64,000 bases of DNA, taken from assembly GCA_015075325.1 (NCBI GenBank), contig JABTUP010000007.1, positions 1 through 64,000 on the forward strand, read 5' to 3'. This DNA comes from Flavobacteriales bacterium (lineage in GTDB: Bacteria > Bacteroidota > Bacteroidia > Flavobacteriales_E > Vicingaceae). The position numbers were made by a program, and so were the translations under genes. Shown piece by piece: positions 23,631-28,637 of this stretch (positions within the stretch are counted from its first letter, which is position 1; each line of letters opens with the position of its first letter). A model generated the notes under the pieces. That model saw nothing but the letters and a program-made list of their open reading frames with translations, was not told the origin of the DNA and searched no databases.

Positions 23631-23640
23631 TGTTTTTAAT
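23631..23640 (+). promoter_or_regulatory. Putative CarH half-site upstream of the regulator gene
   Basis: TGTTTTTAAT ends exactly 19 nt before the TAACTTTG element at 23660. The same decamer at 24750-24759 ends exactly 19 nt before the TAACTTTG of the crtI promoter, where it is part of a perfect inverted repeat. The shared motif and spacing suggest one DNA-binding protein, most simply autoregulation by the CarH-like protein. It could instead reflect an extended promoter preference. Confidence 0.45.
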
Positions 23641-23659
23641 TTGCTCATTTATTTATTGC

Positions 23660-23667
23660 TAACTTTG
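23660..23667 (+). promoter_or_regulatory. -7 promoter element of the CarH-like gene
   Basis: TAACTTTG, a full match to TAnnTTTG, lies 21 nt before the ATG at 23689. A TTG at 23641-23643 is a possible -33 element. Confidence 0.6.
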
Positions 23668-23688
23668 TTTAACAATACAATTATTTTA

Positions 23689-24588
23689 ATGAACAATATT
23701 AAAGAACAGTTCACTATAAAAGATTTAGAAAATCTTTCGGGAGTAAAGGCACATACCATACGAATTTGGGAAAAACGCTACGGTTTATTGGCTCCGCAAC
23801 GAACCGACACCAATATTAGATACTATGATATTGCGAGTTTGCAAAAATTGCTTAATGTGTCGTTGCTCAACTCAAACGGTTATAAAATATCTAAAATAGC
23901 CAATATTCCAGAAGATAAAATTTCGGCTACTGTTCGCGAGCTCATCTCAAAAAAAGGAGTTAATCATCATGCCATCAATTCGTTTAAATTGGCAATGCTC
24001 AATTTCGATCAAAAATTGTTCGATCACACTTATAATCAATTGCTGGCTCAAAAATCGTTTCGCGAAATTTTCCTCAATTTATTTGTCGATTTTTTAGAAG
24101 AAATTGGTTTATTATGGCAAACCAGCTCTATAACTCCAGCTCACGAACATTTTATAACCAATTTAATAAAACAAAAAATTCAGTTGCATTTAGAAAAACT
24201 GCAATTGCAAACTCCCGATAAAACCAACAATGTTTTTGTATTGTTTTTACCCATCAACGAAATTCACGAATTAGGTTTGTTGTATGCACATTTAGAATTA
24301 ATGTTGCATGGATATCATTCTATATATTTAGGACAAAGTGTTCCGCTTAGCAATTTAAAAGCATTGCAACAACTTCATTCAAAAATTGTTTTTGTATCTT
24401 ATTTTACTGTTTATCCGTTGGTTGAGGAGTTAAATGATTATTTAAGTGAAGTAAAACAAGATGTTTTAAGACCCGAAGATGAATTTTGGGTTTTAGGAAA
24501 ACGATTAAACGAAAAAGAAGTCGAAATTCAAACTTATCCTCAATTAAAATCATTTGATAAGCTAACCGATTTTATCAAGCAACTATAA
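23689..24588 (+). CDS. carH: CarH/LitR-like MerR regulator with a B12-binding photosensor domain
   Basis: A 299-residue regulator. The ATG at 23689 follows a good promoter and is preferred over an in-frame codon at 23641. A MerR winged helix occupies residues 7-75 (FTIKDLENLSGVKAHTIRIW, then EKRYGLLAPQRT). The rest matches the CarH cobalamin module: W143-x9-E153-H154 (LLWQTSSITPAHEH), the four-helix lid over adenosylcobalamin, and E191-x-H193-x-x-G (EIHELG), where the His is the lower cobalt ligand. Known CarH proteins bind DNA as B12-bound tetramers in the dark and release it when light breaks the Co-C bond. The carotenoid operon starts 213 bp downstream on the same strand, behind an inverted repeat that is a likely operator. 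Confidence 0.9.
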   Translation: MNNIKEQFTIKDLENLSGVKAHTIRIWEKRYGLLAPQRTDTNIRYYDIASLQKLLNVSLLNSNGYKISKIANIPEDKISATVRELISKKGVNHHAINSFKLAMLNFDQKLFDHTYNQLLAQKSFREIFLNLFVDFLEEIGLLWQTSSITPAHEHFITNLIKQKIQLHLEKLQLQTPDKTNNVFVLFLPINEIHELGLLYAHLELMLHGYHSIYLGQSVPLSNLKALQQLHSKIVFVSYFTVYPLVEELNDYLSEVKQDVLRPEDEFWVLGKRLNEKEVEIQTYPQLKSFDKLTDFIKQL

Positions 24589-24743
24589 TCAAAGTTAATT
24601 TTTAAAACTTACTTAGCTTTTTAGAAACTACAAACATCACTAGTTTTCTATCACTTCATTTATAACTATTGTAGAAAGTAGTTTTGTTAAATATTGAATA
24701 GAATACCTCTAATTCCTTTAAAAATCGTGTGTAATTTAATTTT

Positions 24744-24771
24744 GTTTAATGTTTTTAATAAAACATTAAAC
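24744..24771. promoter_or_regulatory. Perfect inverted repeat at the crtI promoter, likely CarH operator
   Basis: Arms GTTTAATGTTTT and AAAACATTAAAC (12 bp, perfect) flank TAAT. The repeat ends 7 bp before the TAACTTTG -7 element at 24779, so it spans roughly -49 to -22 and would block RNA polymerase. Its inner decamer TGTTTTTAAT recurs at the carH promoter with identical spacing. Assignment to CarH is inference from position, symmetry and that recurrence. Confidence 0.6.
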
Positions 24772-24778
24772 ATTTTTG

Positions 24779-24786
24779 TAACTTTG
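24779..24786 (+). promoter_or_regulatory. -7 promoter element of the carotenoid operon
   Basis: TAACTTTG lies 15 nt before the crtI ATG at 24802. This predicts a short leader of about 9 nt. Confidence 0.6.
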
Positions 24787-24801: not shown

Positions 24802-26310
24802 ATGATAAATAACATAAAAATTAAAAAAGTAGTCATAATTGGTTCCGGGTTTTCATCATTATCAGCAGCATGTTATTTAGCAAAAGCTGGTTATGAAGTA
24901 ACTGTTTTAGAAAAAAATGATACCATAGGAGGCAGAGCCCGCCAGTTAAAAAAAGAAGGTTTTTTATTTGATATGGGACCAACGTGGTATTGGATGCCTG
25001 ATGTTTTTGAACGCTTTTTTAGTGATTTCAATAAATTGCCATCTGATTATTACGAGTTAAAAAAACTTAATCCGGCTTATCAAGTTTATTTCAACTTAAT
25101 GGATTCAATAACCATTCATGATAATCTAAAAGAAATTTACGATGTTTTTGAACGAGAAGAAAAAGGGAGTTCTATACATTTAAAGGCTTTTTTAAAATCG
25201 GCAAAAGAAAACTATGATATAGCCATCAAAGATTTGGTTTACAATCCTGGAGTTTCTATTACCGAGTTAATTACGCCTCAAACCATAACTAAACTCAATC
25301 AGTTTTTTACCACCATAAGCAACCAAGTTAGAGCTAAAATAAAGAGCAAAAAACTCATTCAAATTTTAGAATTTCCGGTGTTGTTTTTGGGTGCAAAACC
25401 AAGTAATACACCTGCTTTTTACAATTTTATGAACCATGCCGACTTTGGTTTAGGCACTTGGCATCCAGTTGGTGGCATGTTCGAAGTGGTTAAAGCCTTG
25501 GAAAACCTTGCTTTGAGTTTAGGTGTTACGATTAAAACAAAACAAAACATTTCTAAAATTGTAGTTGAAAACGAAAAAGCAATTGCCGTTCAGGTTGGCA
25601 ATCAGGTTGTTTTTGCAGATGTTATTTTAAGTGGAGCCGATTATCACCATACCGAGACTCTTTTGTCTAAAGAATACCGAGTTTATACCGAAAATTATTG
25701 GGAAAATAAAACCTTTGCTCCATCGTCGTTGTTGTTTTATGTTGGTTTTGACAAAAAACTTAAAAATGTTTCTCACCATACCTTGTTTTTTGACACCGAT
25801 TTTGATGAGCATGCAAAAGACATCTACGACAACAAAAAATGGCCAGAAAAACCATTGTTTTATGCCAGTTTCCCTAGTGTAACCGACCACAATTTTGCTC
25901 CACAAGGCAAAGAAGCAGCCACATTTTTAATTCCTATAGCTCCAGGAATTGAAGATACCAATGAAATTAGAGAGGCATATTTCAACAAAATTATTACCCG
26001 ACTAGAAGAAGTTACCCAACAATCGGTAAAAGACAGCATCATTTTTAAAGATTCATACTGCGTTAAAGATTTTATTGCTGATTACAATTCATACAAAGGA
26101 AATGCCTACGGAATGGCAAATACCTTAATGCAAACTGCTTTTTTACGTCCAAAAATGAAAAGCAAAAAAGTAAACAACCTATTTTTTACTGGTCAGCTTA
26201 CCGTTCCAGGTCCAGGAGTTCCTCCATCCCTTATTTCAGGAAAAATAGTTGCCGAACAAATTGTTAAACACCATCCAATACTTAAAAGTTATGAAGAAAC
26301 AGTTATTTGA
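24802..26310 (+). CDS. crtI: Phytoene desaturase CrtI
   Basis: A 502-residue FAD-dependent desaturase that turns phytoene into lycopene. The ATG at 24802 follows the promoter; the longer frame back to 24694 has no family match. The N-terminal dinucleotide site is VVIIGSGFSSLSAACYLAKA with the second Glu in VTVLEKNDTIGGRAR. FDMGPTWYWMPD is typical of CrtI-type desaturases, and the C-terminal FAD motif is NLFFTGQLTVPGPGVPPSLI. The crtB ATG lies inside its last codons (20-nt overlap), so the two are translationally coupled. Confidence 0.95.
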   Translation: MINNIKIKKVVIIGSGFSSLSAACYLAKAGYEVTVLEKNDTIGGRARQLKKEGFLFDMGPTWYWMPDVFERFFSDFNKLPSDYYELKKLNPAYQVYFNLMDSITIHDNLKEIYDVFEREEKGSSIHLKAFLKSAKENYDIAIKDLVYNPGVSITELITPQTITKLNQFFTTISNQVRAKIKSKKLIQILEFPVLFLGAKPSNTPAFYNFMNHADFGLGTWHPVGGMFEVVKALENLALSLGVTIKTKQNISKIVVENEKAIAVQVGNQVVFADVILSGADYHHTETLLSKEYRVYTENYWENKTFAPSSLLFYVGFDKKLKNVSHHTLFFDTDFDEHAKDIYDNKKWPEKPLFYASFPSVTDHNFAPQGKEAATFLIPIAPGIEDTNEIREAYFNKIITRLEEVTQQSVKDSIIFKDSYCVKDFIADYNSYKGNAYGMANTLMQTAFLRPKMKSKKVNNLFFTGQLTVPGPGVPPSLISGKIVAEQIVKHHPILKSYEETVI

Positions 26311-27124
26311 TCAGGTATCGATTAAAAGTAGCAAATTAGTTACTAAAGAATACAGCACTTCGTTTTCAATTGCTGTTAATATGTTGGCTCCATCAATTCG
26401 TGATGCCATTTACAGTATTTATGGTTTTGTTCGTTTTGCCGATGAAATTGTAGATTCGTTTCACGAATACAACAAAGTGGATTTGTTAAACGAATTTGAA
26501 TTGGAATATTACAAAGCCATGACAAACGACATTAGCTTAAATCCAATTTTAAACTCGTTTCAGCAAACAGTGAAAAAATACAATATTCCAGATGAGTTGA
26601 TAAGTGCTTTTATGAAAAGTATGCGAATGGATTTGCACAAAAACGAATACCATACTCATCAAGAATATCAAGAATACATTTATGGCTCGGCAGATGTAGT
26701 GGGTTTAATGTGTTTAAAAGTATTTGTAAATGGCGACGACCAAAAATACAACGAACTAAAAGATGCAGCCATGAGTTTGGGTTCAGCTTTCCAAAAAGTG
26801 AACTTTTTGAGGGATTTAAAAGACGATGTAAACGATTTGTCAAGAACCTATTTTCCTGGAGTTAATTTAAAATCGCTAACACCCGAAAACAAACAGTTGA
26901 TTATTGATGAAATTGAACACGATTTTAAATTGGCTTATGCTGGTATTGTTCGTTTGCCTAACGAAGCTAAGTTTGGTGTTTACACAGCGTTTGTTTATTA
27001 CAAATCGTTGTTGCAAAAGTTAAAAAATACACCATCACATCAAATTATAGAAAAACGAATAAGGGTTTCAAATCCTGCTAAAGTGGGTTTATTGGCTAAA
27101 TCTTTTTCGGAACTCCTTAGATGA
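26291..27124 (+). CDS. crtB: Phytoene synthase CrtB, C-terminus rewritten by an IS insertion
   Basis: A 277-residue squalene/phytoene synthase that condenses two GGPP to phytoene. The ATG at 26291 overlaps crtI. Asp-rich motifs are GFVRFADEIVDSF (residues 38-50) and LRDLKDDVNDL; YFPGV is also conserved. The last five codons, SELLR, and the TGA come from the left terminal repeat of the IS element at 27108-28637. Rejoining the flanks after removing the IS and one target copy gives AKSFFALKLNLL and a TAA at 28669-28671, typical of flavobacterial CrtB. The protein therefore lost about nine residues and gained five, and probably stays active since the catalytic core is untouched. Confidence 0.93.
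   Translation: MKKQLFDQVSIKSSKLVTKEYSTSFSIAVNMLAPSIRDAIYSIYGFVRFADEIVDSFHEYNKVDLLNEFELEYYKAMTNDISLNPILNSFQQTVKKYNIPDELISAFMKSMRMDLHKNEYHTHQEYQEYIYGSADVVGLMCLKVFVNGDDQKYNELKDAAMSLGSAFQKVNFLRDLKDDVNDLSRTYFPGVNLKSLTPENKQLIIDEIEHDFKLAYAGIVRLPNEAKFGVYTAFVYYKSLLQKLKNTPSHQIIEKRIRVSNPAKVGLLAKSFSELLR
27100..27107. repeat. 8-bp target-site duplication, left copy
   Basis: ATCTTTTT directly precedes the left terminal repeat and is repeated directly after the right one at 28638-28645. Eight base pairs is the size expected for IS1595-family insertion. Confidence 0.85.
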
Positions 27125-27134
27125 TGGTAGTTCA
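27108..27134. repeat. Left terminal inverted repeat of the IS element
   Basis: 27 bp, identical to the reverse complement of 28611-28637. In the crtB frame it encodes the last residues and supplies a stop codon (TGA at 27122-27124). Confidence 0.92.
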
Positions 27135-27146
27135 CTATTTTTATTG

Positions 27147-28076
27147 CTATAATTCACTTTTTACTCCTTTCTTTGGTTTCATGTTTATAAAGCATTTTTC
27201 ATCTTCAACTGCTTCGTTTAGTAAATCGTGAAACATTTGTTTGTTATTTCTGTTGTTGTAACGGTACGCAAATTCAGAAATATAAAAAGGTAGATACCTT
27301 TTTGATAAATGATGATACTGCCCTGTTATACCTCTTTTTATAATAGCCCAAAATGATTCAATAGTATTGGTATTTAAGCCATAACTTGAAAATTCATCTT
27401 TATGTTTAACCATGTATCGTTGAATTATCTTATCAAACTCTTGGGTATATTCTTTTCCCTCATCAGTTATTAAAACAGACCTATCTGCTTTTATATTACT
27501 TTTCAGTAGGTTTAATAATTCTAGTGTTTCAGTATCTTTTTTAACGTGTTTGGCTATTACTTTACCGTTTGGTTTTTTCTCGATATAACCAATAATTTGT
27601 TCTTTGTCTGCTCCTTTACCACGCTTATGTTTTATCCTATCTACTTTTTTATTGGTTTTTCTGGGTTTACCTCCAATATAAGTAGAATCTGATTGTATGA
27701 TACCCTCTAAAATATATGATTGGTCTTGCATAGCACACCTTATACGCATTGATGTGTACCATGCTGTATTCCATGAAACATCTAAGTTTCTTGACAATTG
27801 CATTGCACTCAATCCTTTTTTAGCCGACAACATTAAGTGGATAGCATAAAACCATTTTTGCAATGGTAAGCGAGTACCCTCAAATATAGTATCTTTCAGT
27901 ACGCTAAAAGATTTGTTTTCATCGTTACAATGCCAACGTAACTCACTCTTAAATTTAGTAACATTTGTAGAGCCACAGTTTACGCAAACTGGCTCATCTT
28001 TCCACCTTAAATATTCAAGGTGGTTTAAGCAATCTTTTTGCGTTGGAAAGGTTTTATATATTTCGTGGATATTCAT
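27147..28076 (-). CDS. IS1595-family (ISXO2-like) DDE transposase
   Basis: A 309-residue transposase. The N-terminal zinc-ribbon has CVNCGSTNVTKFKSELRWHC (residues 32-51). The ISXO2-like catalytic core follows: IIQSDSTYIGGKPRK (first Asp; the residue after it is Ser where Glu is usual), SVLITDEGKEYTQEF (second Asp) and TNTIESFWAIIKRGITGQYHH (Glu). The C-terminus ends FRYNNRN-like (EFAYRYNNRNNKQMF). The sequence is full length with no frameshift, so activity is plausible. It starts 5 bp after the passenger gene stop. Confidence 0.95.
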   Translation of the reverse strand: MNIHEIYKTFPTQKDCLNHLEYLRWKDEPVCVNCGSTNVTKFKSELRWHCNDENKSFSVLKDTIFEGTRLPLQKWFYAIHLMLSAKKGLSAMQLSRNLDVSWNTAWYTSMRIRCAMQDQSYILEGIIQSDSTYIGGKPRKTNKKVDRIKHKRGKGADKEQIIGYIEKKPNGKVIAKHVKKDTETLELLNLLKSNIKADRSVLITDEGKEYTQEFDKIIQRYMVKHKDEFSSYGLNTNTIESFWAIIKRGITGQYHHLSKRYLPFYISEFAYRYNNRNNKQMFHDLLNEAVEDEKCFINMKPKKGVKSEL

Positions 28077-28081
28077 TTAAG

Positions 28082-28567
28082 TTAGGTTTGTGTATTATTG
28101 TAATCCATAATTACTTTTTTAATTTTTTCATTCAAGTCTTTTGGAATAGGTTTTAAGCCTTTTATCTCATCAGATGTAAATCCTAAATAAGCTAACTCAC
28201 TTGGAGTAAATCTGTTATTTAATTCATTTAAATAAGCCCCTGTAATATTAGGGTTACTTGATATTATAGCATTAATTAAACTTATTCTTAAAGCATGGTC
28301 GTAAATAGCTAAATTTAACCAATTAATATAATTTGAAATTATATCTTTAATCTTCCAATAAGCTAAGAGTATAACCCCAATTGTAACAACTGAAATTGAT
28401 ATTATTAACCCGAAATTATTTATTAAAAAATGAATCATAACATTAGTATTATTAATAAATGGTTTAAGTGTTACTTTTAAAACATACAAACTTCCATGTC
28501 CTACTATAAGCCATATTATTTTATATAATCTTTCTTTTGTAAAGAATTTTTCTTGTTTATTTTCCAT
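28082..28567 (-). CDS. IS passenger gene: small membrane protein of unknown function
   Basis: A 161-residue protein lying wholly within the IS terminal repeats and immediately upstream of the transposase. It has a hydrophobic segment at about residues 15-35 (IIWLIVGHGSLYVLKVTL) and a clearer membrane helix at about 47-70 (FLINNFGLIISISVVTIGVI). A soluble helical C-terminus (RISLINAIISSNPNITGAYL, FTPSELAYLGFTSDEIKGLK) follows. I recognise no family. Its position suggests a role carried by the element, not by the host operon. Confidence 0.75.
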   Translation of the reverse strand: MENKQEKFFTKERLYKIIWLIVGHGSLYVLKVTLKPFINNTNVMIHFLINNFGLIISISVVTIGVILLAYWKIKDIISNYINWLNLAIYDHALRISLINAIISSNPNITGAYLNELNNRFTPSELAYLGFTSDEIKGLKPIPKDLNEKIKKVIMDYNNTQT

Positions 28568-28590
28568 GATTTTTGAGTTTTAGTTTAACC

Positions 28591-28598
28591 CAAAAATA
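28591..28598 (-). promoter_or_regulatory. Candidate -7 promoter element inside the IS
   Basis: Read on the minus strand this is TATTTTTG, a match to TAnnTTTG. It lies 23 nt upstream of the passenger gene ATG and would drive passenger gene and transposase. Confidence 0.45.
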
Positions 28599-28610
28599 CA
28601 TTTAATTTAT

Positions 28611-28637
28611 TGAACTACCATCATCTAAGGAGTTCCG
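28611..28637. repeat. Right terminal inverted repeat of the IS element
   Basis: 27 bp, perfect complement of the left repeat at 27108-27134. The direct repeat ATCTTTTT follows at once. Confidence 0.92.

Follow-up and report, generated by a model that had tools for sequence, protein, structure and literature searches.

Which DNA site could serve a CarH-type regulator at both its own promoter and that of the carotenoid genes beside it? The question is raised by a locus in a 64,000-nucleotide stretch (the window) from a Flavobacteriales bacterium of the Vicingaceae, positions 1 to 64,000 of contig JABTUP010000007.1.

The regulator and its carotenoid neighbours

The gene in question, and the genes and insertion element downstream of it, are:

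23689–24588, plus strand: carH, 299 aa, with a MerR-type DNA-binding domain, a B12-binding four-helix bundle and a Rossmann-like cobalamin domain (Pfam, AlphaFold/Foldseek/VIA, invariant residues)
24802–26310, plus strand: crtI, phytoene desaturase (NCBIfam CrtID, 737 bits, above cut-off)
26294–27124, plus strand: crtB, phytoene synthase (SQS_PSY)
27109–28636: IS1595-family element at the crtB stop codon
28692–30378, plus strand: idi, crtZ-like hydroxylase and lycopene cyclase genes, separated from crtI-crtB by the IS1595 element

A preliminary description had taken the product of 23689–24588 for a CarH-like MerR regulator carrying W143-x9-EH and ExHxxG, and this identity was confirmed by domain searches, structural comparison and residue conservation. 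Pfam analysis revealed the N-terminal winged-helix DNA-binding domain MerR_1 (4.1e-14) and B12-binding_2 (3.6e-11), and the cobalamin motifs read W143-x9-E153H154 and E191-x-H193-xx-G196. W143, E153, H154 and H193 were invariant in an alignment of 30 relatives, with E191 and G196 conserved in at least 90%. An AlphaFold model built from this alignment (mean pLDDT 89.7) gave TtCarH as its top Foldseek match in the PDB (E 1.5e-13), and its residues 90–299 aligned with the cobalamin domain of TtCarH at a VIA-align Z of 19.9 and rmsd 2.6; the Thermus CarH/LitR proteins are the closest solved relatives having both domains. Against the NCBIfam CarH equivalog NF052513 the protein scored 82.6 bits (E 2.8e-23), below the curated cut-off of 400 bits; judged by sequence, it is a member of that family outside its equivalog group. 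The MerR domain, the cobalamin domains, the W-x9-EH and E/DxHxxG motifs and the association with carotenoid genes, all present here, are traits of the CarH/class I LitR group of AdoCbl-binding MerR photoreceptors. A carH homologue was present in 29 of 29 genomes tested from the class Bacteroidia, and in most relatives carH lies immediately 5′ of crtI or crtB. The genome also encodes an ATP:cob(I)alamin adenosyltransferase (PF01923, E 2.2e-62), so AdoCbl is plausibly made in this host, provided that cobalamin is available.

An inverted repeat at the carH and crtI promoters

The sites considered upstream of the two genes are:

23631–23640, plus strand: decamer TGTTTTTAAT, with a second copy at 24750–24759; not conserved and not considered functional
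23660–23667, plus strand: carH -7 box TAACTTTG, whose last G is the first operator base
23667–23694, plus strand: predicted carH operator GTTTAAC-N14-AATGAAC, whose right arm takes in the start codon and codon 2
24737–24744, plus strand: candidate crtI -7 box TAATTTTG
24744–24771, no strand assigned: predicted crtI operator, a perfect GTTTAAT-N14-ATTAAAC, also readable as GTTTAATGTTTT-TAAT-AAAACATTAAAC
24779–24786, plus strand: second candidate crtI -7 box TAACTTTG, the one used in the preliminary description

The element truly common to both promoters, missed in the preliminary description, is TAAyTTTGTTTAAy (23660–23673 and 24737–24750), and its 3′ end is the left arm of GTTTAAY-N14-RTTRAAC. 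By comparison with relatives, the conserved 28-base inverted repeat (T)GTTTAAY-N14-RTTRAAC(A) is the site to which CarH most likely binds. At the carH promoters of relatives TAnnTTTG runs into TTTAAY, and at 41 of 49 non-redundant loci its first base lies precisely 29 nt ahead of the start codon; with GTTTAAY as the left arm, RTTRAAC falls 14 nt on, across the start codon and codon 2. When spacings of 0–30 nt between the arms were scanned with up to one mismatch, 32 of 50 carH promoters of relatives matched at N14, with no other spacing exceeding 3, and more distant carH genes gave 7 of 36 against at most 2, the loci being mutually related and their counts therefore not independent events. The right arm of carH in the window, AATGAAC, has one mismatch. 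Several distant carH loci place the arms on either side of the -7 box (GTTTAAT-TATATTTGnnnnnn-ATTAAAC), and many distant class-level carH genes have no site at their own promoter. A search for inverted repeats of any kind in the carH upstream region was set aside, having returned mostly terminator-like hairpins of the preceding gene.

Conservation of the right arm at carH could come in part from the start codon and the Met-Asn that it encodes. Signs of selection on the DNA itself are seen in codon 2, which reads AAC at 61 of 69 loci and AAT at two more, when AAC makes up 29% of the Asn codons in the rest of carH; in the TTG or GTG start of 32 of the 69 loci; and in Lutibacter-type loci, where GTTCAAC is paired with TTTGAAC and the symmetry is retained. 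That the carH start codon belongs to one operator arm in many members is somewhat favoured, as part of the joint regulon reading given below.

The perfect repeat described earlier for the crtI promoter is present at 24744–24771, and it is unique in the 3.3-Mb genome, the next best match to TTAATGTTTT-N4-AAAACATTAA having two mismatches. The 14 perfect matches found among 51 non-redundant carH-crtI gaps were without exception at N14; with up to one mismatch, 23 of the 51 matched at N14 and no more than 3 at other spacings. No operator was found in carH-crtI gaps of the Eudoraea, Muricauda and Aquimarina types, loci that probably rely on the carH promoter alone. The gap measures 213 nt in the window versus 55–66 nt in the closest relatives (G001, genus g6), in which the operator is present; the idea that this long gap is itself a repeat was rejected, there being no full copy elsewhere and only operator-like sites on contig C61. 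Of the two candidate boxes, TAATTTTG at 24737–24744 keeps the register that TAACTTTG has to the operator of carH and may therefore mark the crtI promoter in place of TAACTTTG at 24779; at one relative locus (L034) the operator ends 7 nt before its TATATTTG, the geometry of the 24779 box. On its own, TAnnTTTGTTTAA showed no enrichment in the genome, with 23 occurrences versus 27 for its reversed control; what is diagnostic is the two-armed site, not the promoter half by itself.

Distribution of the site and its predicted targets

Across 46 family genomes, perfect GTTTAAY-N14-RTTAAAC sites numbered 67 versus 8 reversed-pattern controls in the 31 bearing carH, and 15 versus 7 in the 15 without it, some of these carH-negative assemblies being incomplete. 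Most inspected sites in the carH-negative genomes lie inside genes. The flanking T and A, which were outside the search pattern, are 95% conserved among the family sites, giving TGTTTAAY-N14-RTTAAACA. Intergenic family sites precede carH, crtI, and genes for ECF sigma factors (3 genomes), DNA photolyase (3), rhodopsin (3, perfect), SRPBCC proteins (3), 6-pyruvoyl-tetrahydropterin synthase (2) and GTP cyclohydrolase I (1, at 106 nt upstream), as well as glutathione peroxidase, SOUL, fasciclin, DUF4397 and TetR_C_23 genes. At three loci of other family members (L193, L216 and L013) carH and crtI are separated by an ECF sigma gene that has an operator before it, an arrangement resembling a CarH-to-sigma cascade.

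Five of nine family rhodopsin genes carry the site (up to one mismatch) 48–62 nt before the start, the order-level Rhodopsin search having returned only the 46 genomes of the family; among Bacteroidia rhodopsin loci N14 accounted for 13 of 38 and no other spacing for more than 3. Most photolyase genes sampled across the class lack a site, which among those seen was present only in G030, G031, G032 and G099, and the photolyase of the genome under study has none. G032 (contigs C23 and C115) holds three carH homologues and eight perfect operators.

In the genome under study the credible targets, as read from the sequence, are carH, crtI and a 55-aa ORF without a Pfam match, which is preceded by two perfect operators in tandem, 35 nt apart (L158:5013-5252; C61:7612-7851). 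The G001 homologue of this ORF (L189:2103-2270) shares its site with a divergent 6-pyruvoyl-tetrahydropterin synthase gene. A RidA-like (Ribonuc_L-PSP) ORF at L158:5314-5706 has an N-terminus unlike that of its G001 homologue, as if replaced by unrelated sequence. One-mismatch sites in this genome are mostly inside genes and were unconvincing. Two perfect sites on contig C62, one of them beside CRISPR repeats, have a recurrent palindromic sequence in common and were not counted as operators. This sequence, GTTTAAT-TCCGTT...-ATTAAAC, occurs without gene context in several genomes (L223:2056-2083, L224:2064-2091, L332, L344) and probably represents a different repeat family despite fitting the operator pattern. 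The adjoining CRISPR-like repeats (L224:1900-2060, on C62 near 23300) end in AATTTCTACTATTGTAGAT, the form of type V-A (Cas12a) repeats.

Downstream of carH the order is crtI, crtB, the IS1595 element, idi, the crtZ-like gene, the lycopene cyclase gene and an SDR gene. The element is bounded by 26-bp perfect terminal inverted repeats (27109–27134 and 28611–28636), and no operator-like site was found upstream of idi. Because the element separates crtB from idi-crtZ-cyclase and the upstream region of idi has no site, light control in this strain may be limited to carH and crtI-crtB.

A predicted light switch and the alternatives to it

The operators of TtCarH and BmCarH consist of three or four 11-bp direct repeats nAnnTnnACAn with a TnnACA core (PMC8156234). 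TnnACA pairs at offset 11 were absent from 51 carH promoters and 32 crtI gaps; inverted TGTnnA/TnnACA with starts 24 nt apart occurred in 43 of the 51 and 26 of the 32. The present system resembles CarH/LitR of Thermus thermophilus, and CarH of Bacillus megaterium, in domain layout, cobalamin residues, fold, carotenoid neighbour genes and half-site core, but has two inverted arms where theirs has tandem direct repeats. Class II LitR proteins of Pseudomonas (PplR1, PmlR2) recognise an inverted TGTACA-N12-TGTACA whose arms start 18 nt from each other; it lies at light-induced genes, folM among them, either covering the -35 region or downstream of the start site and before the start codon (PMC9758184). 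The inverted repeat and its TGTnnA/TnnACA layout are alike; however, the class II protein lacks the second cobalamin domain that the present one has, and a distance of 18 nt between arm starts, as in the class II operator T(G/A)TACA-N12-TGTA(C/T)A, was found in 0 of 51 carH promoters and 1 of 32 crtI gaps. In Chryseobacterium lacus, likewise of the Bacteroidota and with the same crtB, crtI, crtZ and CarR_dom cyclase genes, these genes are light-induced, and its authors reported no car or lit genes there (PMC7064467). A search of open-licence papers returned nothing on a CarH/LitR operator in Bacteroidota or on CarH control of proteorhodopsin.

We put at about 0.77 the probability that the locus encodes a CarH-type switch with a conserved autoregulatory inverted-repeat operator. 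The gene product would be an AdoCbl-binding CarH/LitR repressor whose AdoCbl form occupies (T)GTTTAAY-N14-RTTRAAC(A) in the dark, blocking RNA polymerase at its own promoter, where the site starts in the -7 box and extends into the start codon, and at crtI, where it covers the promoter region; in light the Co-C bond would be broken, CarH would leave and carH and crtI-crtB would be transcribed. The comparisons establish the identity of the protein and the anatomy, conservation, spacing and genomic targets of the operator; we infer binding of the site by CarH, repression, and dependence on AdoCbl and light by analogy with known CarH, which represses in the dark as AdoCbl-CarH and is released by light (PMC8156234). 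A carH site that begins in the -7 box and reaches the start codon is in keeping with a repressor that feeds back on its own gene, and the autoregulation proposed in the preliminary description holds at the level of sequence, crtI and carH each having a conserved site. In favour of this switch we count the CarH identity with its invariant cobalamin residues, the N14 spacing tests at carH promoters and crtI gaps, the AAC preference at codon 2 and the frequent TTG or GTG starts, the excess of sites in carH-bearing genomes, the light-related and photo-oxidative targets, the TnnACA core and the adenosyltransferase; against it, that the repeat is inverted where those of TtCarH and BmCarH are direct, the mismatch in the right arm at carH, the distant carH genes with no site, and the patchy photolyase sites together with the siteless photolyase of this genome. 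In relatives the same site would widen the regulon to rhodopsins, ECF sigma factors, pterin synthesis, photolyase and peroxide defence. That Bacteroidota share an AdoCbl-CarH light regulon through this undescribed operator, with direct control of rhodopsin as well as carotenoid, ECF-sigma, pterin and oxidative-stress genes, we consider somewhat better than an even bet.

The inverted repeat might instead belong to another regulator, such as a TetR_C_23 protein or an ECF sigma system, with carH and crtI merely among its targets, as sites before TetR_C_23 genes (L190, L205) and before ECF sigma genes (L193, L216, L013) could suggest. However, no gene is tied to the site as constantly as carH, which has it in three promoter layouts; sites are in excess mainly in carH-bearing genomes, and the arms share their TnnACA core with known CarH sites. 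This makes the alternative unlikely.

Marginally less probable still is that CarH binds the site without acting as a light switch, either as an activator or without B12. The M. xanthus paralogue CarA keeps a B12 motif yet binds without B12 (PMC8156234), so B12 dependence is not certain here, and MerR-family proteins can activate, several sites (crtI, rhodopsin) lying upstream of the -7 box. Against this stand the invariant cobalamin residues, the AdoCbl-making enzyme, the light-related targets and the position of the carH site, which overlaps -7 box and start codon as a repressor site would.

The preliminary description had instead taken TGTTTTTAAT at -19 for the half-site, present singly at carH and within a complete palindrome at crtI. 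Both copies do end 19 nt before TAACTTTG (23660–23667 and 24779–24786), and an exact 10-nt identity at equal offset has a chance probability of 4.5e-4 for one chosen pair (Markov null); no shared run of at least 10 was found between TAnnTTTG upstreams in 351 window pairs examined. When promoters of relatives were aligned, as had been proposed, the inverted repeat proved conserved but the decamer did not, occurring in 0 of 68 carH upstreams with a mean match of 3.7/10 at its offset, and it was rejected as a half-site together with its -19 spacing. A different conserved two-armed site stands at both promoters, and carH has, in place of a half-site, two arms with the same 14-nt gap as crtI, making the decamer reading very improbable. 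Least probable of all is that the crtI palindrome, which lies between the two genes before a short T run, is a terminator or RNA hairpin of carH, since its stem is almost entirely A/T, the same arms and gap recur across start codons and in front of the genes for CarH, rhodopsin and sigma factors, and conservation is confined to the arms, sparing the inner part.

CarH photoreceptors are known from few bacteria and with direct-repeat operators; here the same TnnACA core appears in an inverted repeat, which provides an explicit, mutable 28-bp target and a list of predicted regulon members, making CarH and its operator directly testable for lineages carrying the site. The predicted regulon in relatives is wider than carotenoids, and the supply of vitamin B12 would be expected to govern how light controls carotenoids and, in some lineages, rhodopsin.
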